Position numbers and translations under genes: made by a program
In this document: positions 3,501 to 15,643 of the stretch, in pieces
How positions within the stretch are numbered: the first letter of the stretch is position 1
Layout of the letters: every line of letters starts with the position of its first letter
From: Gallionella sp.
GTDB taxonomy: Bacteria; Pseudomonadota; Gammaproteobacteria; Burkholderiales; Gallionellaceae
Direction: 5' to 3'
Length of the DNA: 15,643 nucleotides
Assembly: GCA_030690245.1 (NCBI GenBank)
Contig: JAUYGW010000156.1
Span: forward strand, 1-15,643
The notes under the pieces: generated by a model
Told to the model about the DNA's origin: nothing
What the model saw: the letters and a program-made list of their open reading frames with translations, nothing else
Databases searched by the model: none

Positions 3501-3970
3501 TCGCCAAACAAATGGGGCTACCCGATGAACAAATACACGGCATCCATCTTGCCGGGATTGTGCATGACCTGGGGAAAATCCAGGTTCCGGCGGAGATACT
3601 GAGCAAGCCGGGCAAGATCAGCGACATCGAGCATCGCTTCATCAAAGCCCATCCGCAGGCAGGTTACGATATTCTGAAAGACATCAACTTCCCCTGGCCG
3701 ATTTCGCAGATGGTGTTGCAACACCATGAACGCCTCGACGGGTCAGGCTATCCGCAAGGGCTCAAGGGCGATCAGATTATTATCGGAGCGCGCATCCTGA
3801 GTGTGGCGGACGTGGTCGAAGCGATGTCCTCGCACCGCCCGTATCGTGTTGGCTTGGGGGTTGAAGCGGCGCTGGAGGAGATCATTAAGCAACGCGGCAT
3901 CCATTTCGACCCGCAAGTGGTGGATGCGTGCCTGGCGTTATTCCGCGAACAGGGTTACAAATTCGAGTAG
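545..3970 (+). CDS. Receiver-PAS(x5)-GAF-HD-GYP protein, probable c-di-GMP phosphodiesterase
   Basis: This is a 1141-residue cytoplasmic sensor-effector. An N-terminal receiver (about 1-120, acceptor D56, lysine K106) is followed by five PAS/PAC units at about 142-260, 267-375, 389-500, 515-630 and 642-755. Four of these end in a D-[IVL]-TER-[KR] linker and the fifth in the close variant DVITERKRAE. Next come a GAF domain (about 789-933) and an HD-GYP domain (about 960-1141). The HD-GYP catalytic signatures are intact: HDLGK at 1007-1011 and HHERLDGSGYP at 1060-1070, so hydrolysis of c-di-GMP is expected from the family. No transmembrane segment or signal peptide is evident. It starts with GTG at 545, with GGAAG at 532-536 as ribosome binding site. 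The stop TAG coincides with the GTAG of a REP element at 3967. The PAS ligands are unknown. The neighbouring receiver protein suggests both answer to one kinase. Confidence 0.93.
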   Translation: MSELRILLLEDSLSDAELLEHNLRREGMVFTALRVDTEPAFKQALSDFKPDIVLADYNLPSYNGRAALDYVQRVHSGIPVVMVTGAIGEEMAVELLTAGARDYILKDRLARLPAAVRRVLSAEQGIRARKAAEKALQQSEADLMALVEHSPIAMIVDVGVEPDEKFVMMNRKFTELFGYTMEDVPDVHHWWPLAYPDEKYREQLRAEWTRRVEKAVQNHGDIEPMEATVTCKDGSSRYVKASLASIGSRNIVTLEDLTERKKAEEELERFFNLIPDLVCVASIDGHFLKINPAWQETLGYTMQEILSKPFLDFVHPDDLDATIKEVERQLNGEATMQFANRYLCKDGSYKWLEWRATPAVDGKLLFASARDVTERRQAEERIHFSEALLRQTQSLATIGSWRFYVPRNELIWSDETYRIFGISTGTPLSYEIFIGHVHPDDRVMVDSAWQAALKGAPYCVQHRIVVNGVTRWVEERAEFEFDAQGNLYSATGAVQDITERKQMEDEIKEVSDHNRTIMETANDAIICMKPDGTIHLWNHKAEEMFGHTAQEVIGQKMHQLITPDQYRGKEIEGLRQFAKTGTGPIVGKTLELSALRKNGVEFPIELSVSSMNIRGEWHATGIVRDITERKRAEQKLSESEKLYRSLFENMLNGFAYCQMIFEQDQPQDFIYLSVNAAFEALTGLKNVAGKRVSEVIPGIRQSDAKLFEIYGRVSLTGKPERFEIYVEALQQWFWISVYSPEKSYFVAVFDVITERKRAEIALKHSNRALATLSAVNKSLVRASDEDELLHAICQSIVEQRGYRMVWVGYTQHDENQSVKVVASAGYDEGYLDAINVSWAENERGMGPTGRAIRSGTTQLCQDFANDPRHLPWRDAALKRGYAASIALPLTNGEVFGALTVYADEVNTFTPDEVSLLEEMANDLAFGVRSLHIRQERDLALKQSQQRLEQLQDNLEDSVRAIASIVEMRDPYTAGHQLRVAGLAAAIAKQMGLPDEQIHGIHLAGIVHDLGKIQVPAEILSKPGKISDIEHRFIKAHPQAGYDILKDINFPWPISQMVLQHHERLDGSGYPQGLKGDQIIIGARILSVADVVEAMSSHRPYRVGLGVEAALEEIIKQRGIHFDPQVVDACLALFREQGYKFE

Positions 3971-4140
3971 ATGCGGAGCTATCTGCCCAAAAACGGGCGA
4001 ATGAATTTGGCCCTACAGATGGGCTTATCCGGGCTTGTGTAGGTGCGGATTTATCCGCACAAAATCAGCAAAACGGGCGAATAAATTCGCCCCTACGGGT
4101 GGGCTTATCCGGGCTTATGTGGGTGCAAATTTATTCGCAC
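3967..4140. repeat. REP cluster upstream of the RAYT gene
   Basis: Five 22-base REP palindromes lie here: 3967-3988 (degenerate, direct), 3995-4016 (inverted), 4039-4060 (direct), 4075-4096 (inverted) and 4119-4140 (direct, GTGG instead of GTAG). Direct copies have the core GTAGGTGCGGATTTATCC. Inverted copies have GGGCGAAT...GCCCCTAC. Spacers inside a pair are 6 or 14 bases. The linkers between pairs (4017-4038 and 4097-4118) are both 22 bases and share GGGCTTATCCGGGCTT. The first REP overlaps the last bases and stop codon of the HD-GYP gene. Confidence 0.9.
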
Positions 4141-4158
4141 ATCAGGCAAGGTGATTGA

Positions 4159-4611
4159 ATGTCCTATGACGATTTGCGCAAAGGCCGTTATAGCGAGCAG
4201 CGGCGCACTTATTTTGTTACGACGGTATTGGCCGAGGGGGAGCGGCGTTATTTTGCCGATTTTTTCTGCGCTCGCTGCGTGGTCGCGGAGATGCGTGCAT
4301 TGCACGATGATGAAGTGGTATTTTCATTGGCGTGGGTAGTCATGCCCGATCATGTTCATTGGCTGTTTCAGTTAGGGGAACAGAAGGATTTGTCTGCTGT
4401 GGTAAAACGCTTCAAGGCGTGTTCCGCGCGCCGGGTGAATGGTTATCTCAATCGGCAAGGTGCGTTATGGCAAAAGGCATTTTACGATCATGCGATACGC
4501 AAAGATGAAGACACCCAAGGTGTTGCACGGTATATCGTCGCCAATCCGCTGCGTGCCGGACTGGCCGAAAAGATTGGCGACTACCCGCTATGGGATGCAA
4601 TCTGGCTGTAG
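4159..4611 (+). CDS. REP-associated tyrosine transposase (RAYT, Y1_Tnp/HUH family)
   Basis: This 150-residue protein belongs to the single-domain Y1 (IS200/IS605-related) RAYT family. It shows the metal-binding HUH motif in MPDHVHW (H65, H67) and the candidate nucleophile Y125 in the helix ARYIVANPLRAGL, followed by the typical C-terminal GDYPLWDAIWL. The length is normal for the family and there is no frameshift, so it looks intact. It starts at ATG 4159, with AAGGTGA at 4147-4153. Members of this family bind and cleave REP palindromes and are thought to spread them; they are usually single-copy and flanked by cognate REPs, exactly as here. Its stop codon TAG (4609-4611) is supplied by the GTAG of the downstream REP. 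It converges on ugd. Confidence 0.93.
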   Translation: MSYDDLRKGRYSEQRRTYFVTTVLAEGERRYFADFFCARCVVAEMRALHDDEVVFSLAWVVMPDHVHWLFQLGEQKDLSAVVKRFKACSARRVNGYLNRQGALWQKAFYDHAIRKDEDTQGVARYIVANPLRAGLAEKIGDYPLWDAIWL

Positions 4612-4701
4612 GTGCGGATTTATCCGCACAAAAATGGGCGAATGAATTCGCCCCTACAAGTGTGCTTATCCCGGCCTGTGTAGGTGCGGATTTATCCGCA
4701 C
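4608..4701. repeat. REP cluster downstream of the RAYT gene
   Basis: Three REP palindromes: 4608-4629 (direct), 4636-4657 (inverted) and 4680-4701 (direct). The 22-base linker at 4658-4679 (GTGTGCTTATCCCGGCC core) is a diverged copy of the linkers found upstream of the transposase. The cluster lies between the convergent ends of the transposase gene and ugd, where its hairpins could also act as a bidirectional transcript end. That role is inference. Confidence 0.9.
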
Positions 4702-4714
4702 ATTTCCGCACATC

Positions 4715-6562: not shown

Positions 6563-6703
6563 CCTAGAGAAAGCAGTTGGCAGGATGGTAGGGGCGAATT
6601 CATTCGCCCGAACAGCAGGTTGCGTGCGAATGAATTCGCACCTACAAGAACAGCTCAACGTATTGAAACAGCATGTTATTTCCCGCCAACTGCTTTTTCT
6701 AGG
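6563..6703. repeat. 22-bp inverted repeat enclosing a REP pair
   Basis: CCTAGAGAAAGCAGTTGGCA (6563-6582, continuing GG) matches the reverse complement of 6682-6703 at 20 of 22 positions. The arms enclose the RAYT-family REP pair at 6588-6645, making a 141-base unit resembling a small element with terminal inverted repeats. It may instead be an older hairpin, downstream of miaA, that was split by REP insertion. Confidence 0.75.
6588..6645. repeat. REP pair of the RAYT family, reversed order
   Basis: The left copy (6588-6609) begins GTAGGGGCGAATTC and the right copy (6624-6645) ends GAATTCGCACCTAC. The spacer is 14 bases. Compared with the other pairs, the G-type palindrome comes first and the T-type second, so the whole pair is inverted. 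Confidence 0.88.
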
Positions 6704-9790: not shown

Positions 9791-10255
9791 ATGACAACAG
9801 AACAAATCAGCAAGACCTATGAAGTCGGTTTCTCGACAGACAAGATGCAGCACATTTTTTATATAAGCTGCACGGACGATAGTGATGCAAAATCATTTGC
9901 GCATGCAGTCTTCCATTATTACGACATACCGGCAGACTGGGGCAAAAAAGGTTTCATCACGAAGATTGCCGAGATCAAACCCAGCAATTGCATACCGGAT
10001 TTCCTGCATATCGGCTTGCAGGGCAAAAAAGAATTGGCGATGCCGGAAGAAAACGAAGAATCGCACCGGGCAGTCGGGAAAATGATCAAACAAGTCATGG
10101 ATGATGGATGCGTGCCGATGGCTATCTATGACGAAGAAACTAAAATCATGACAGTCTATGCGACTCATAAAATGGAAATTTCTCCGCAAACCGGCGCGGC
10201 CAGCGTGGTTCTGAATTTCAGCAATGCTGGCGGCATCCCGGTAAAAAAGAAGTAA
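9791..10255 (+). CDS. Unrecognised 154-residue soluble protein
   Basis: I do not recognise a family. The protein has no signal peptide or hydrophobic membrane stretch. It seems an alpha/beta cytoplasmic protein with a polar, acid-rich middle (MPEENEESH) and a basic C-terminus (PVKKK). Two cysteines are in ISCTDD and SNCIPD, and one in DDGCVP, without a spacing that suggests a metal site. AAAGG at 9777-9781 is the likely ribosome binding site. Base composition is clearly more AT-rich than mutL or norB beside it, which may mean recent acquisition. It stands between divergent mutL and the nor genes, with a possible terminator after it, so it is probably monocistronic. Confidence 0.75.
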   Translation: MTTEQISKTYEVGFSTDKMQHIFYISCTDDSDAKSFAHAVFHYYDIPADWGKKGFITKIAEIKPSNCIPDFLHIGLQGKKELAMPEENEESHRAVGKMIKQVMDDGCVPMAIYDEETKIMTVYATHKMEISPQTGAASVVLNFSNAGGIPVKKK

Positions 10256-11374: not shown

Positions 11375-12817
11375 ATGACAGCGCTCGGGACTATCGATGG
11401 CACCAACCTGAACGGCGGCCAGAAGCTGGCGGTGAAGTATTTTTGCGTCGCCGCAATCCTGTTCGGCGCGCAGATCGCGTTCGGCCTGCTGGCCGGATTG
11501 CAATATCTGATACCGGATTTTCTTTACGAAGTGCTGGATTTTTCGATTAACCGCATGGTGCATATCAACGCGATGGTGGTGTGGATGCTGTTCGGCTTTA
11601 TCGGTTCGGCCTATTGGCTGATGGAGGAAGAGTCCGGCATTCCGGTGGTCGGGCTGAAGCTGGGGAACCTGGTCTTCTGGATATTCACTGCGGCGGTAGC
11701 CGTGGTGGTGGCAGTTTACCTGCTGGTGCAAATAGGGCCGGGCGAGCACAGCACGCTCTGGCTGATTACCGAGGGCCGCGAGTATATCGAGGCGCCGCGC
11801 TGGGCGGATATCGGCATCGTGGTTTGCCTGCTGGTTTTTTTCTTCAATGCCGCCGCCACCTTCAACAAGGGAAAATGGACCGGCATCGGCGGGGTATTGG
11901 TGCTGGATTTGATCGCCCTGTTCGGCATCTATCTGGCGGGCATGTTCTACACCACCAACATCTCGGTGGACCAGTACTGGTGGTGGTGGGTGATCCACCT
12001 GTGGGTGGAAGCGACCTGGGAGGTGCTGGTGGGCGTGCTCATGGCCTACGGGCTGATGACCGTGCTGGGCGCGCGCCGCAAGATCGTGGAAACCTGGCTG
12101 TATATCGAAGTGGCGCTGATGTTCGGCTCCGGCATTCTCGGCCTGGGGCACCATTACTTCTGGATTGGCACGCCGGAATACTGGTTGTCCATCGGCGGCT
12201 TCTTCTCGGCGCTGGAGCCTGTTCCGCTGGTTGCGATGGTGGTGCATGCGGTGTTCGATTCCGGCGTGCACAAGATGCGCAGCAGCAATCATCCCGCGAT
12301 GGCATGGCTGATCGCTCACGCGTTCGGCAATTTCTTCGGCGCGGGCGTGTGGGGCTTCATGCATACCCTGCCGCAAATCAACCTGTACACCCACGGCACG
12401 CAATGGTCGGCCTCGCACGGCCATCTCGCGTTCTTCGGCGCCTACGCCACCATCAACATCGCGTTTTTCTATATCGCGATGCAGAAATGGCGCGGTAATG
12501 TCTGGATGAGCGGTGATTTGGTCGGCGGCTGGAAGTGGAAATGGTCGATGGTGCTGCTGAACCTCGGCATGGTCGGCATGACCATGGGCCTGCTGGTCGC
12601 TGGTTACGAGCAGTCCCAGATCGAGCGCGCCATCGAAGGCTCCACTTGGGCCGGCTACTTCGCGGCGCAGGCGCACCCGTGGTTCCAGCAGGGCATGTTC
12701 TGGCGGATGATTTTCGGCGGGATGTTCGCGGCGGGCTACGTGCTGCTGGTTCTGGACCTGCTGACCATTGGCCGGCATGAAACGCGCCCCGCGCAGAATG
12801 TATCGGCGGGTGGGTAA
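11375..12817 (+). CDS. norB: Nitric oxide reductase catalytic subunit (cNOR type)
   Basis: This 480-residue, about 12-helix membrane protein reduces 2 NO to N2O at a haem b3/non-haem Fe(B) site. The expected ligands are visible: H63 (MVHINA) and H350 for the low-spin haem, H348 for haem b3, and H208, H259 and H260 for Fe(B). The glutamates of HLWVEATWE (E212, E216) and E281 in SALEPVP, diagnostic of NORs rather than oxygen reductases, are all present. The start at 11375 has AGGAGA at 11363-11368. An upstream in-frame ATG at 11330 lies within norC and is rejected. norQ and norD, whose products usually activate cNOR, do not follow; the next genes converge from the other strand. Confidence 0.97.
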   Translation: MTALGTIDGTNLNGGQKLAVKYFCVAAILFGAQIAFGLLAGLQYLIPDFLYEVLDFSINRMVHINAMVVWMLFGFIGSAYWLMEEESGIPVVGLKLGNLVFWIFTAAVAVVVAVYLLVQIGPGEHSTLWLITEGREYIEAPRWADIGIVVCLLVFFFNAAATFNKGKWTGIGGVLVLDLIALFGIYLAGMFYTTNISVDQYWWWWVIHLWVEATWEVLVGVLMAYGLMTVLGARRKIVETWLYIEVALMFGSGILGLGHHYFWIGTPEYWLSIGGFFSALEPVPLVAMVVHAVFDSGVHKMRSSNHPAMAWLIAHAFGNFFGAGVWGFMHTLPQINLYTHGTQWSASHGHLAFFGAYATINIAFFYIAMQKWRGNVWMSGDLVGGWKWKWSMVLLNLGMVGMTMGLLVAGYEQSQIERAIEGSTWAGYFAAQAHPWFQQGMFWRMIFGGMFAAGYVLLVLDLLTIGRHETRPAQNVSAGG

Positions 12818-12828
12818 AAACTTCAGTT

Positions 12829-12940
12829 AGCCACAGATTGACACGGATAACCACGGATAAAGCATCGCGTTGCGAAGGATAGGCATTTCATCCAAATAGT
12901 ACAGGAAAAAACTGATGTGACCCATTGTTCATCCGTGGCT
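12829..12940. repeat. Short dispersed element with CCACGGAT inverted repeats
   Basis: The stretch opens with AGCCACAGAT (12829-12838) and closes with ATCCGTGGCT (12931-12940), inverted with 9 of 10 matches. It also contains ACACGGATAACCACGGATAA (12841-12860). This CCACAGATT-CACGGAT type is a common dispersed repeat. It fills most of the 159-base gap between the convergent norB and Fe-S genes. No clear terminator was seen there. Confidence 0.6.
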
Positions 12941-12976
12941 CAATCGCGTTTTTCAGGATAATTCCGCAGCTGGCTG

Positions 12977-13624
12977 CTAGGCGATCCATATCCCTTCCAC
13001 TCTTACCCGCATGCCGCGTTCCCTTTTCGCCAGTGCATTGACCAAACCAGAGTGGCGCGATTGCAGCATGCACATGCGCGGCAGGAAAAAATAGCGTTGG
13101 CCGATCTGCAATTCCTGACGGGCATGCCTGACGATGCCTTCGTAGGCGATGATGTGGTAGTGGCCGATCTCGCGCCCACGTTCGCGCGCGGCCATCGGCC
13201 CGACGATGCACCAGACGATGACGCCGTTCAGGTAGTCCGGCTCCTCGACCACCACCCCCACATGCGTCACCGGGCAGCCGGTCATCACCGGGCGTCCGTA
13301 CAGCACGTCGCCTTTCTTGACGGCGAGCCGTTCGACGTTCAACGGATTGAGCGGCACGATGATTTCGCGCGGCCCCGGGTCTTCCGGGAACGGCTCCAGC
13401 ACGAAGTCGTAATCCCTGCCCAGCATGTCTTTCCAGGTGATATCCGAATCGGCGGGGAGGATGGGTATGGTTGCGGTAGCAGGCTGGTCGAGGTAGATGC
13501 AGCGCTTGAGCGCATCCGGGTGATCGACGACAAGTTCGGCCAGCCCCGCGCAGGTCTTGAAACCGCATTGCCCGCAGTCCTTGCCGGGCAGTCTTGCCAG
13601 AATTTCCTGTGCGCTTTCCGCCAT
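12977..13624 (-). CDS. 4Fe-4S domain protein, third gene of the ATPase/GTPase module
   Basis: The 215-residue protein begins with a CX2CX4CX16C iron-sulfur domain (C17, C20, C25, C42 in GKDCGQCGFKTC...KRC). This spacing is that of the small Fe-S domain in RnfB and in the large subunit of corrinoid Fe-S proteins. The remaining ~165 residues are unfamiliar, with TGCPVTHVG, GHYHIIAYEG and FLPRMCMLQSRHSG, which add Cys and His. No signal peptide or membrane segment is seen. The start at 13624 overlaps the GTPase stop by one base (TGATG) and has GGGGACAG upstream; an in-frame start at 13720 would overlap the GTPase by almost 100 bases and add a region unlike the rest. The partner enzyme is unknown. 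It may donate or hold a cluster for maturation, or be an electron carrier for the two NTPases. Confidence 0.85.
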   Translation of the reverse strand: MAESAQEILARLPGKDCGQCGFKTCAGLAELVVDHPDALKRCIYLDQPATATIPILPADSDITWKDMLGRDYDFVLEPFPEDPGPREIIVPLNPLNVERLAVKKGDVLYGRPVMTGCPVTHVGVVVEEPDYLNGVIVWCIVGPMAARERGREIGHYHIIAYEGIVRHARQELQIGQRYFFLPRMCMLQSRHSGLVNALAKRERGMRVRVEGIWIA

Positions 13625-14322
13625 CACTGTCCCCGGTAAAACAAGTCGGAATCCAGCGTGCGCAGCACGCCGAAATGATGCTCCGAACCGATCTGCCTTT
13701 TTCCGGCGCAGATCGTGCATACCGCCATCGGCGGGCTGCCCCTGAGCATCATCGGCTCTTTGACTTCACGAGCATGTTCGACCCGCGCGGCGATGCGGTC
13801 GATACCGATGCCGTGCAGCGCATCGGTTTCCAGTACGTCGATGCCTGCTGCATCGATGATGTTGGCGCGGAACACTTCCTTCTCGGCCTGGGAAACCAGG
13901 TCGATCTTGGTGACCACCGCGATGTCCGCCAGCGTCAGCATCGCGCCGATCTTGCGCGGCAAATTCATGCCGCTGGTCGCCTCCAGCACCACAATGCCGA
14001 GCGACCCCTCGATATACGGCGCGCAGCGCAGGCACAACCCCGCCGTTTCCACGAGCAGCGTATCCGCCCCTTGCTTCTCCGCCCATTTCACCGCGTCGCC
14101 CAGCACCAGCACCCCGGCGTGATCCGGGCACAGTTCGCCGGAATACACCTTCCTGGCCGGAATGCCGAACTCGTTTTTGAACAACTCGTCCTCGTCGGCG
14201 AACTGCACGTCGATCTTGAGATAGGCGAGCCGTATTCCTTTGGCCAGCAGCCTGCGCGTCACCTGGCGCAGCACCATGGTCTTGCCGCTGGTGGGCGGCC
14301 CGGCGCACATTATGAGTTTCAT
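13624..14322 (-). CDS. HypB/UreG-like P-loop GTPase, putative metallochaperone
   Basis: This 232-residue cytoplasmic NTPase has a P-loop GPPTSGKT (8-15), a switch region LLVETAGLCLRCAP (E92, C97, C100), and TKID (138-141) for guanine specificity. The order GELCPDHA ... VETAG ... EATSGMNLPRKIGAMLTLADIAVVTKIDL ... DALHGIGIDRI parallels HypB and UreG (SIMIBI class), which deliver nickel to enzymes. Extra cysteines in GELCPDHA and CTIC (C202, C205) could bind metal. ATGA overlaps tie it to the ABC ATPase upstream, and one base to the Fe-S gene downstream, so the three products are likely made in step. No hydrogenase or urease gene is in the window, so the client is unknown. Confidence 0.85.
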   Translation of the reverse strand: MKLIMCAGPPTSGKTMVLRQVTRRLLAKGIRLAYLKIDVQFADEDELFKNEFGIPARKVYSGELCPDHAGVLVLGDAVKWAEKQGADTLLVETAGLCLRCAPYIEGSLGIVVLEATSGMNLPRKIGAMLTLADIAVVTKIDLVSQAEKEVFRANIIDAAGIDVLETDALHGIGIDRIAARVEHAREVKEPMMLRGSPPMAVCTICAGKRQIGSEHHFGVLRTLDSDLFYRGQ

Positions 14323-15137
14323 CGCACATCTCCTGTCGACCTCAGGTTGGCCAGCTCCATGATGACGCGCAGCTCCTCCTCGACCAGCAGTTCGCCGCCG
14401 CGTATCTTGTCGCGCAAGCCGTCCATGACTTTGCCCATCTGATCTATTTTTCCGGCGATACGCTGTTCTTCGGCGCCGGTGGTGATGACATCCTGCATCG
14501 CGCCGCCCTTCATCACGATGCGGTAGTTCGAGAGCAGCGCGATGTGCGGGTCGTGGGTGACGAAGATGAAAATCTTCTCGTATTTGCGCAGCAGTTCGAG
14601 CGCCTTGCTGCGGTCGATACCGGCGTTCTCGATCTCGTCCAGCAGGATGATCGGAGAATTGCCGATGATCACGGCATCGGCGATCAGCAACGCGCGGCTC
14701 TGGCCGCCGGAAAGTTCGGTCATCGCGCTGTCGACGATGATCGGCTCACCGGTCAACTGGTTGGCAAATTCCAGCGTGTCGTCGACCACCGAACCGGTGC
14801 GCCCGCTGTGCCGGATGCGCGCGTGAATCTCGAGGAATTTATGCACCGGCAGGTCGGAAAGAAAGCTGGTGTGCTGCGTGATCAGCGCGATCGGGTTTTT
14901 GGACGGGTCGTCGAGAAATTCGGTAGAGGGAACCGCGTCGTTGATCAGGACGCGCCTGCGGGAGGGAGTGTTTTCGCCGGCGAACAGGCCAATGTCGTTG
15001 ATCAGCGCGGTCTTGCCGGAGCCAGTCGGGCCGACGATGCTGAGCACATCGCCCATCGCCAGATCGACCCGCTCGACCGGATCCTTGTTCCCGGCCCTGC
15101 CGTAGCCGCCCAGAATGGAAATTTTCCTGATCGTCAT
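14319..15137 (-). CDS. Soluble ABC-type ATPase, first gene of the module
   Basis: This 272-residue ATPase has all ABC motifs: Walker A GPTGSGKT (36-43), Q-loop around ALITQHTS, signature LSGGQ (142-146), Walker B ILLDE (E168) and the H-loop VTHD (H195). The C-terminus (about 215-272) is a charged helical extension (KIDQMGKVMDGLRDK). No permease or substrate-binding gene accompanies it and it has no membrane segment, so a transporter role is unlikely. Like the soluble ABC proteins of cluster assembly or enzyme reactivation, it may drive conformational work. The ATG at 15137 follows a plausible promoter at 15171-15199. Its stop overlaps the GTPase start by 4 bases. Confidence 0.87.
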   Translation of the reverse strand: MTIRKISILGGYGRAGNKDPVERVDLAMGDVLSIVGPTGSGKTALINDIGLFAGENTPSRRRVLINDAVPSTEFLDDPSKNPIALITQHTSFLSDLPVHKFLEIHARIRHSGRTGSVVDDTLEFANQLTGEPIIVDSAMTELSGGQSRALLIADAVIIGNSPIILLDEIENAGIDRSKALELLRKYEKIFIFVTHDPHIALLSNYRIVMKGGAMQDVITTGAEEQRIAGKIDQMGKVMDGLRDKIRGGELLVEEELRVIMELANLRSTGDVR

Positions 15138-15170
15138 CGCCGCTGCCTCGCGCCAGTTGTGAGCGTCTTC

Positions 15171-15199
15171 AGTATAGGCTCAATACCGCACTGACGCAA
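15171..15199 (-). promoter_or_regulatory. Candidate promoter of the ATPase/GTPase/Fe-S operon
   Basis: On the minus strand TTGCGT (15194-15199) and TATACT (15171-15176) are 17 bases apart, a good sigma-70 layout, in the 80-base gap between the comEC stop and the ATPase start. It would leave a leader of about 25-30 bases. Confidence 0.45.
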
Positions 15200-15217
15200 A
15201 GCCGTAGCCGTGCCGGC

Positions 15218-15643
15218 CTATGGCCGAGGCACATGCGTCCAGTAGCGGCGATGCGTCTTGCGGTAGCGTTCCACCTGCAAGCCCTGCGCGTTCATCTCGA
15301 CCAGGATTGCACCGTCTTCGTCCGAGCGCAGCAGTTCCGCGCCGCTGTCGGCGTAGCGTTGCAGCACTTCTTCCCTCGGATGGCCGAAGCGGTTGCGGTA
15401 ACCGGCGGTGAACACCGCATAGTCCGGCAGCGTGGCGGCGACAAATTCCAGGCCCGATGAACTCTTGCTGCCGTGATGCGGTGCGACCAGCAGGCTGGTA
15501 TACAGCCTGTCGGCATGTTCCCGGATCAGGCGCGTTTCGGAAGCCTTCTCGATGTCTCCCGCCAGCAATATGCTGTGCTTGCCGATGCCGATGCCGATGC
15601 CGATGCCGATGCCGATGCCGATGCTGATGCGCAGCACGCAACT
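15218..15643 (-). CDS. comEC: ComEC/Rec2 competence protein, C-terminal part (5' end outside the window)
   Basis: The open frame runs off the right edge, so only the last 141 residues are seen. It is the end of the metallo-beta-lactamase-like domain of the DNA-uptake channel protein: SCVLRI...KHSILLAGDIEKASE, then LLVAPHHGSKSSS, FTAGYRNRFGHPREEVLQRY and SDEDGAI, all typical of ComEC. Between SCVLRI and KHSILL a hexanucleotide repeat encodes a run of Ile-Gly. ComEC transports single-stranded DNA across the inner membrane; the fragment shown is the periplasmic or cytoplasmic hydrolase-like domain. The TAG stop is at 15218-15220. The next operon on this strand has its own promoter candidate. Confidence 0.88.
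   Translation of the reverse strand, partial: SCVLRISIGIGIGIGIGIGIGKHSILLAGDIEKASETRLIREHADRLYTSLLVAPHHGSKSSSGLEFVAATLPDYAVFTAGYRNRFGHPREEVLQRYADSGAELLRSDEDGAILVEMNAQGLQVERYRKTHRRYWTHVPRP
15581..15628. repeat. Hexanucleotide tandem repeat in comEC
   Basis: Seven perfect GCCGAT units (15581-15622) and one variant GCTGAT (15623-15628) lie in the comEC reading frame, giving alternating Ile and Gly. As the unit is a multiple of three, changes in copy number keep the frame. Confidence 0.95.

Follow-up and report, generated by a model that had tools for sequence, protein, structure and literature searches.

Component A2 of the methyl-coenzyme M reductase activation complex is an ATP-binding cassette (ABC) ATPase that, together with iron-sulfur (Fe-S) proteins, activates a metal cofactor (PMC12176620; here and below, papers are cited for the excerpts on which we draw). 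PhnK/PhnL of C-P lyase and SufC are ABC modules outside transport that remodel an enzyme or a cluster scaffold (PMC9947105, PMC9164220). In Acetobacterium wieringae, whose genome lacks structural genes for NiFe hydrogenase, a putative isoprene reductase operon encodes a HypB-type GTPase together with a 4Fe-4S protein (PMC10134865), and G3E GTPases lacking an assigned client are acknowledged as an unsolved problem (PMC9164220). Here we describe a trio of genes for a soluble ABC ATPase, a G3E-type GTPase and an Fe-S protein (called FeS protein below) on a 15,643-nucleotide stretch of Gallionella sp. DNA (GenBank assembly GCA_030690245.1, contig JAUYGW010000156.1), the whole of which is called the window. 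The window is G000:C281 of a 2.34 Mb draft genome, 82.5% complete. Close relatives that bear a name are metagenome-assembled genomes assigned to Gallionella, Gallionellales, Ferrigenium and Nitrosomonadales, and we take the host family to be Gallionellaceae.

The trio is a real unit under purifying selection. By analogy with A2, PhnK/PhnL and SufC, we propose that its products may work as a soluble machine on a client protein whose gene lies elsewhere, loading the metal centre of that client or re-activating it by reduction; we give this reading an even chance.

A conserved three-gene unit

An earlier reading of the window, made from the sequence alone (the sequence-only reading), had grouped the three genes and named rare co-occurrence as one outcome that would speak against the group. 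Fifteen complete loci from 15 genomes were compared (the window, L001-L007, L027-L030, L032, L047 and L048), and the order ABC ATPase, GTPase, FeS protein is kept in 15/15. Pairwise protein-distance matrices of the three proteins correlate at 0.952, 0.956 and 0.965, values reached by 0 of 2000 permutations. The ratio of nonsynonymous to synonymous substitution rates (dN/dS) against six relatives is 0.04-0.17 across the trio: 0.04-0.11 for the ABC ATPase, 0.05-0.09 for the GTPase and 0.06-0.17 for the FeS protein.

All three open reading frames (ORFs) were found on the minus strand of the window, the ABC ATPase first, then the GTPase, then the FeS protein. They show the short overlaps that the sequence-only reading had described: 4 bp between the ABC ATPase and GTPase genes (14319-14322) and 1 bp between the GTPase and FeS genes (13624), or 4 bp if the GTG start is used. 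The ORF list also holds a longer FeS start at 13720 (a 247-amino-acid ORF), which close homologues do not support. Overlaps are not universal, as a gap of 9-296 bp separates the ABC ATPase and GTPase genes in 10 of the 15 loci, and the gap between the GTPase and FeS genes reaches 48 bp. The shared candidate promoter suggested earlier was not recovered; a scan of 12800-15643 for sigma-70-type promoters gave 0 matches, with 0.7 expected by chance. The trio sits downstream of a comEC-like gene and is convergent with norC-norB. The comEC-like gene is co-oriented with the trio and stops 80 bp before it, so transcriptional read-through is possible. At 15580-15630 the comEC-like gene carries a 6-bp repeat in 8.5 copies (97% match), which encodes alternating Gly and Ile and, by its unit length, preserves the frame.

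Left out of the comparison were the second fetches of L003-L006 and three incomplete loci: L031, where the contig starts inside the GTPase gene and the FeS gene follows; L040, with the ABC ATPase tail, the GTPase and an FeS gene interrupted by a Mu-like prophage; and L022, a remnant with ABC ATPase residues 1-60 beside FeS residues 166-216.

Several copies are unusual in themselves. The L022 remnant (L022:8856-9160, G318:C81) looks like an internal deletion, and is a second copy in a genome that has a complete copy on C102. That complete copy (L004:7818-9992, G318:C102) carries Ala in place of T43 in the ABC ATPase and Tyr in place of C118 in the FeS protein; given the remnant on C81, it may be losing function, or the changes may be an error of the metagenome-assembled genome. 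The last 42 residues of the FeS protein are encoded a second time at L029:2307-2432, shortly after the complete gene. In L040:903-9151 (IMGVR_UViG_3300025308_000147), the Mu-like prophage, whose baseplate and tail-type genes were read by eye, sits after about residue 83 of the FeS protein of a Gallionellaceae-type trio.

The three proteins

The GTPase matches PF02492 (CobW/HypB/UreG domain) at 43.1 bits against a cut-off of 20.7, and also slightly exceeds the Pfam cut-offs for EutP/PduV and MeaB. Its predicted fold is of the UreG/HypB/MeaB type, and nickel-bound UreG comes nearest to the model among chains preselected by Foldseek, followed by HypB. It scores below the equivalog models for HypB (TIGR00073, 43.8 vs 121.2 bits), UreG (TIGR00101, 27.3 vs 204.2 bits) and MeaB (TIGR00750, 24.6 vs 240.75 bits), and none of all 15 NCBIfam matches reaches the cut-off of its family. 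Six Cys/His residues (C65, H68, C97, C100, C202, C205) are invariant, some of them at HypB/UreG metal positions. In profile alignment the CPDH motif lies opposite EC-H of HypB and GCPH of UreG, that is, at the metal Cys of both, and the CxRC region lies opposite ENVGNLICP of HypB. No COG0523 CxCC motif was found in the GTPase by reading; its cysteines stand in CPDH, CxRC and CxxC instead. The G3 motif reads ETAG. The usual G4 base-specificity motif is NKxD, and T138-K139-x-D141 takes its place in 17/17 loci. Within the P-loop, S12 is replaced by C in L047 and L048 and by V in L049. The PF02492 match, the model comparison and the residue conservation together bear out the earlier description of a HypB/UreG-like GTPase with extra Cys pairs; they place it in the G3E group (HypB/UreG/MeaB) and show the added cysteines to be invariant.

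The ABC ATPase matches PF00005 at 50.1 bits (cut-off 25). The motifs GPTGSGKT, LSGGQSR, IILLDE and THD, the last being the H-switch, can all be read intact in its sequence, and the motif residues are kept in 17/17 loci except for the variable T43: Walker A residues 36-42 are identical in 17/17, while residue 43 is Ala in L004 and Thr or Ser in the other 16. No NCBIfam family reaches its cut-off among the best 25 of 143 matches, and the matches listed are generic ABC matches only. No further gene recurs beside the trio in the loci compared.

The FeS protein matches PF04060 at 41.0 bits (cut-off 23). The CX2CX4CX16C stretch read earlier is exact, and the further Cys/His residues are conserved as well: C118, H122, C140, C186 and H192 are present in 80, 81, 81, 81 and 80 of 81 sequences, and at the complete loci in 15/15 except C118, which is found in 14/15 (Y in L004). 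The cluster head has a predicted fold like that of CFeSP, with which residues 3-50 align. Residues 68-216 had no confident fold match in the whole-model structure search. Against NF003195 (acetyl-CoA decarbonylase/CFeSP gamma) the protein scores 25.8 vs 306 bits, over residues 33-85 of the 247-amino-acid ORF only, and none of all 13 NCBIfam matches reaches the cut-off of its family.

Because the Pfam and NCBIfam matches are at the superfamily level only, we find no strong homology of the trio to a named pathway, the other outcome that the sequence-only reading had said would refute it; neither of the two came about. Coordinates of the genes and motifs are collected in Table 1.

Table 1. Genes and sequence motifs of the trio, in window coordinates
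Feature	Position	Strand	Remark
Soluble ABC ATPase gene, first of trio	15137-14319	-	272 aa (amino acids) ORF
ABC ATPase Walker A GPTGSGKT (residues 36-43)	15009..15032	-	read from sequence
ABC ATPase signature LSGGQSR (residues 142-148)	14694..14714	-	LSGGQ identical in 17/17 loci
ABC ATPase Walker B IILLDE (residues 163-168)	14634..14651	-	D167, E168 in 17/17 loci
G3E-type GTPase gene, second of trio	14322-13624	-	232 aa ORF
GTPase P-loop GPPTSGKT (residues 8-15)	14278..14301	-	G8, P9, P10, G13, K14, T15 in 17/17 loci
GTPase CPDH motif (C65-H68)	14119..14130	-	C65 and H68 in 38/38 sequences and 17/17 loci
GTPase CxRC (C97, C100) in ExAGLCxRC G3 region	14023..14034	-	38/38 sequences and 17/17 loci
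GTPase TKxD at G4 position (T138-D141), reads TKID	13900..13911	-	T138, K139, D141 in 38 sequences and 17/17 loci
GTPase C-terminal CxxC (C202, C205)	13708..13719	-	38/38 sequences and 17/17 loci
FeS protein gene, third of trio	12977..13627	-	216 aa from GTG 13627, 215 aa from ATG 13624
FeS protein 4Fe-4S ligand stretch CX2CX4CX16C	13499..13576	-	C18, C21, C26, C43 (216-aa numbering)
FeS protein second Cys/His set, beta-rich C-terminal domain: C118, H122, C140, C186, H192	13052..13276	-	each in 80 or 81 of 81 sequences

A sister architecture and the distribution of the module

Among plasmid records, the GTPase has one strong relative (37% over 97%), in a 2.1-Mb record of Fusobacterium vincentii. 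There the order is a DUF1858-SBP_bac_6 protein (392 amino acids), the GTPase and an ABC ATPase (L033:7823-10807), the last of which is 43% identical to the window ABC ATPase over 249 residues. No signal peptide was seen by eye in the DUF1858-SBP_bac_6 protein, which is therefore probably cytosolic. The sole match to the FeS profile in this record (E 1e-5, N-terminal part only) is an RnfB-like gene in an rnf-like cluster, both named by eye. A proteobacterium of another family, G502, shows this arrangement too, with a distant relative of the binding protein (22.9%, E 6e-22), the GTPase (41%) and the ABC ATPase (44%), and no FeS match on its 11.5-kb contig; we take it, from its neighbour genes, to be alphaproteobacterial. 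The Fusobacterium GTPase has 6,477 database matches at E <=1e-3, with at least 75% identity among the 120 matches listed, and the remaining matches may include other G3E proteins. Since the GTPase and ABC ATPase also occur with a different third partner, the core is the pair rather than the trio, and the third partner alternates between the FeS protein and a solute-binding-protein-like protein. This sister architecture, in Fusobacterium and one other proteobacterium, is a new observation.

The Fusobacterium record (NZ_CP084075.1) is filed as plasmid pSB055A and has 1 annotated feature; it appears to be the F. vincentii chromosome. A plasmid location of the trio itself was considered and rejected, the FeS protein having no plasmid match at E 1e-5.

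Occurrence is very sparse. The FeS protein was matched in 11/120 genomes of the host family and in 2/78 genomes of the class Zetaproteobacteria, to which Mariprofundus aestuarium (G386, L047) belongs; a 229-genome sample of the host class and a 300-genome sample of its order gave a match only in the host's own genome. In a 349-genome sample of the phylum the GTPase was matched in 4: the host, two Zetaproteobacteria and G502. Database matches to the FeS protein number 1,424 at E <=1e-3, with at least 62% identity among the 120 matches listed. Homologues of the FeS protein that are 56-58% identical to that of Mariprofundus include sequences of a WOR-3 bacterium, an Omnitrophota bacterium and a Helarchaeota archaeon. 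High conservation combined with such sparse occurrence suggests that the trio has spread by horizontal transfer.

A proposed mechanism and its alternatives

In the mechanism we propose, the GTPase, like HypB and UreG, would bind a transition metal, here at the interface of C65/H68 and C97/C100, and release it on GTP hydrolysis. The FeS protein would then take up the metal on its C118/H122/C140/C186/H192 domain, or might instead use its CFeSP-like 4Fe-4S head to donate an electron of low potential. The ABC ATPase, acting as a permease-free soluble dimer, could use ATP to open and close the client or the complex in a power stroke, in the manner proposed for A2 in methyl-coenzyme M reductase activation and for PhnK/PhnL in C-P lyase. 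In the sister type, the solute-binding-protein-like and apparently cytosolic subunit would replace the FeS protein as carrier of a ligand. The genes and their residues are observed directly, while the metal, the client and the formation of a complex we infer.

Several points weigh against this proposal. GTP preference of the GTPase is assumed, as its G4 motif is TKxD rather than NKxD, and the metal ligands of the GTPase and FeS protein are putative, being drawn from conservation and alignment. The C-terminal CxxC of the GTPase, the C-terminal tail of the ABC ATPase and the C-terminal domain of the FeS protein fit no assigned role, and the complete locus L004 has Tyr in place of C118, a residue of the site proposed in the FeS protein. 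The varying neighbours point to no client, and the two candidates tested, NiFe hydrogenase and nitric oxide (NO) reductase, fail. Most close relatives have comEC and mutL beside the trio, with or without norCB; other loci adjoin dnaK/dnaJ, cytochromes, a CDF-like transporter, PEP-CTERM proteins or an aminotransferase (partly by eye).

The chief alternative makes the FeS protein the enzyme that is matured: the GTPase and ABC ATPase would load an unusual site (C118/H122/C140/C186/H192) in what would then be a stand-alone oxidoreductase, the binding protein playing the same part in the sister type. We consider this rather unlikely. The FeS gene is the only gene beside the GTPase-ABC pair in all 15 complete trio loci, the protein has two conserved Cys/His sets, and the module apparently travels as a whole, which would be expected of an enzyme accompanied by its maturases. 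On the other hand, no confident known fold was found for the C-terminal domain in the whole-model search, so no catalytic site can be named; the sister-type partner matches a family of binding proteins rather than of enzymes; and C118 is lost in L004.

A role in zinc or iron homeostasis, with the module supplying scarce metal to housekeeping proteins, has a precedent in zinc-linked COG0523 GTPases (PMC2770081) but is unlikely. Downstream of the pair in F. vincentii, and co-oriented with it, lie DUF6162 and a set of two binding-protein genes plus an ABC ATPase gene, the set being read by eye as a ZnuA/ZnuC-type zinc importer; a CDF-like transporter gene adjoins the trio in L028 (by eye). No metal-uptake genes were seen to recur at the other loci (partly by eye), a 4Fe-4S head would be odd for simple zinc supply, and the GTPase lacks the CxCC motif of COG0523.

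The sequence-only reading had stated that no client such as hydrogenase is present. This holds within the window but not for the host genome, where the large subunit of NiFe hydrogenase is matched on G000:C107. We judge it quite improbable that the trio is a maturation or reactivation factor for [NiFe]-hydrogenase, which would probably be of the NAD-reducing Hox type. The GTPase resembles HypB, and an ORF with formyl transferase and enoyl-CoA hydratase regions, which we take to be HypX/HoxX-like, adjoins the trio in L032, and a related ORF is present in L031, which belongs to the same genus; this is the only hydrogenase link seen at any locus. The large-subunit family PF00374 is matched in both Zetaproteobacteria that carry the trio, and hoxWHYUF is reported for two Mariprofundus CP strains (PMC5513912). 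Promising at first, hydrogenase then showed no association with the trio as a client: PF00374 (any type) occurs in 10/11 family genomes with the trio and 82/109 without it (Fisher p 0.45), and in 34/78 Zetaproteobacteria, both carriers plus 32 genomes without the trio. Of seven carriers of the trio or the sister type searched, three have a match (G336, G349 and G502) and four have none detected, namely the drafts G348, G250 and G953 and the complete F. vincentii record of the sister type.

The patchy occurrence of the trio, the prophage interrupting one copy and a match of the ABC ATPase to PADLOC mad3 (65.3 bits, E 1.7e-18, best stretch residues 138-212, with weaker matches to AriA, mad8 and LmuB) could point to an anti-phage defence island, which we hold to be very improbable. 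PADLOC gave no match for the GTPase or FeS protein, the ABC ATPase matches may reflect common ABC motifs, as the same protein matches 143 NCBIfam families, and both the strong purifying selection and the conserved metal-type residues speak against defence; with PADLOC matches limited to the ABC ATPase, a defence system was set aside.

A role in nitrosative-stress repair or NO-reductase maturation, suggested by norCB as convergent neighbour in the window, L002 and L023 (= L003), is barely credible and as a general role effectively refuted, with norB in 2/11 family genomes having the trio vs 33/109 lacking it (Fisher p 0.51) and with loci without norCB in which the trio lies between comEC- and mutL-type genes (L001, L026) or beside a comEC-type gene (L025).

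Other features of the window

REP-like palindrome families of the GTAGGTGCGAATTCATTCGCAC type occur at 1-70, 3967-4141, 4607-4702 and 6587-6646, surrounding a Y1/IS200-like transposase gene (4159-4611). Together the palindromes and the transposase gene resemble a REP-associated transposase system. A conserved 154-amino-acid protein is encoded at 9791-10255, with homologues in L001, L026 and L032; it has no Pfam match over the cut-off and no NCBIfam match.

Comparison with known systems

Returning to the proposed metallocentre machine, a G3E GTPase here has a constant soluble ABC partner plus a cargo protein of one of two defined kinds, and GTP-driven metal delivery and ATP-driven reductive activation may be joined in one module. 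A wider and more tentative possibility is that the module represents a new class of ATP- and GTP-dependent metallocentre machine, with an ABC-G3E core, exchangeable cargo subunits and one or more metalloenzyme clients, in bacteria and perhaps some archaea; the cargo would be a 4Fe-4S/beta protein in one branch and a binding protein, apparently cytosolic, in the second. Such small operons can be expressed heterologously, so that metal identity, complex formation and the search for a client are directly testable. In a limited search of open-licence PubMed Central literature, by which absence from print is weakly tested, we recognised no description of the trio or the pair.

The GTPase is unlike UreG and HypB, whose metal Cys stands in CH or CPH, in having CPDH, an extra CxRC and C-terminal CxxC, TKxD for NKxD, and an ABC ATPase partner. 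It also differs from CobW/COG0523 proteins, having no CxCC motif, and at 232 amino acids it is too short for the extra C-terminal domain that most COG0523 proteins are described as having (PMC2770081). The A. wieringae operon, as described in the excerpt of PMC10134865, has a TIGR00073 HypB, two HypA and a proposed oxidoreductase client, with no ABC ATPase named among its five genes. With the CFeSP large subunit, only FeS residues 3-50 align, the rest of CFeSP being unmatched. PhnK/PhnL and SufC differ by description in having other partners, with no GTPase mentioned in the excerpts cited (PMC9947105, PMC9164220). The likeness to the A2 system, an ABC ATPase acting with Fe-S proteins, is one of description; A2 is a 59.5-kDa methanogen protein that works with McrC/Mmp proteins, and the excerpt of PMC12176620 names no G3E GTPase among the co-purified subunits. 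The components of the trio belong to known superfamilies, and it is their combination that appears to be new.

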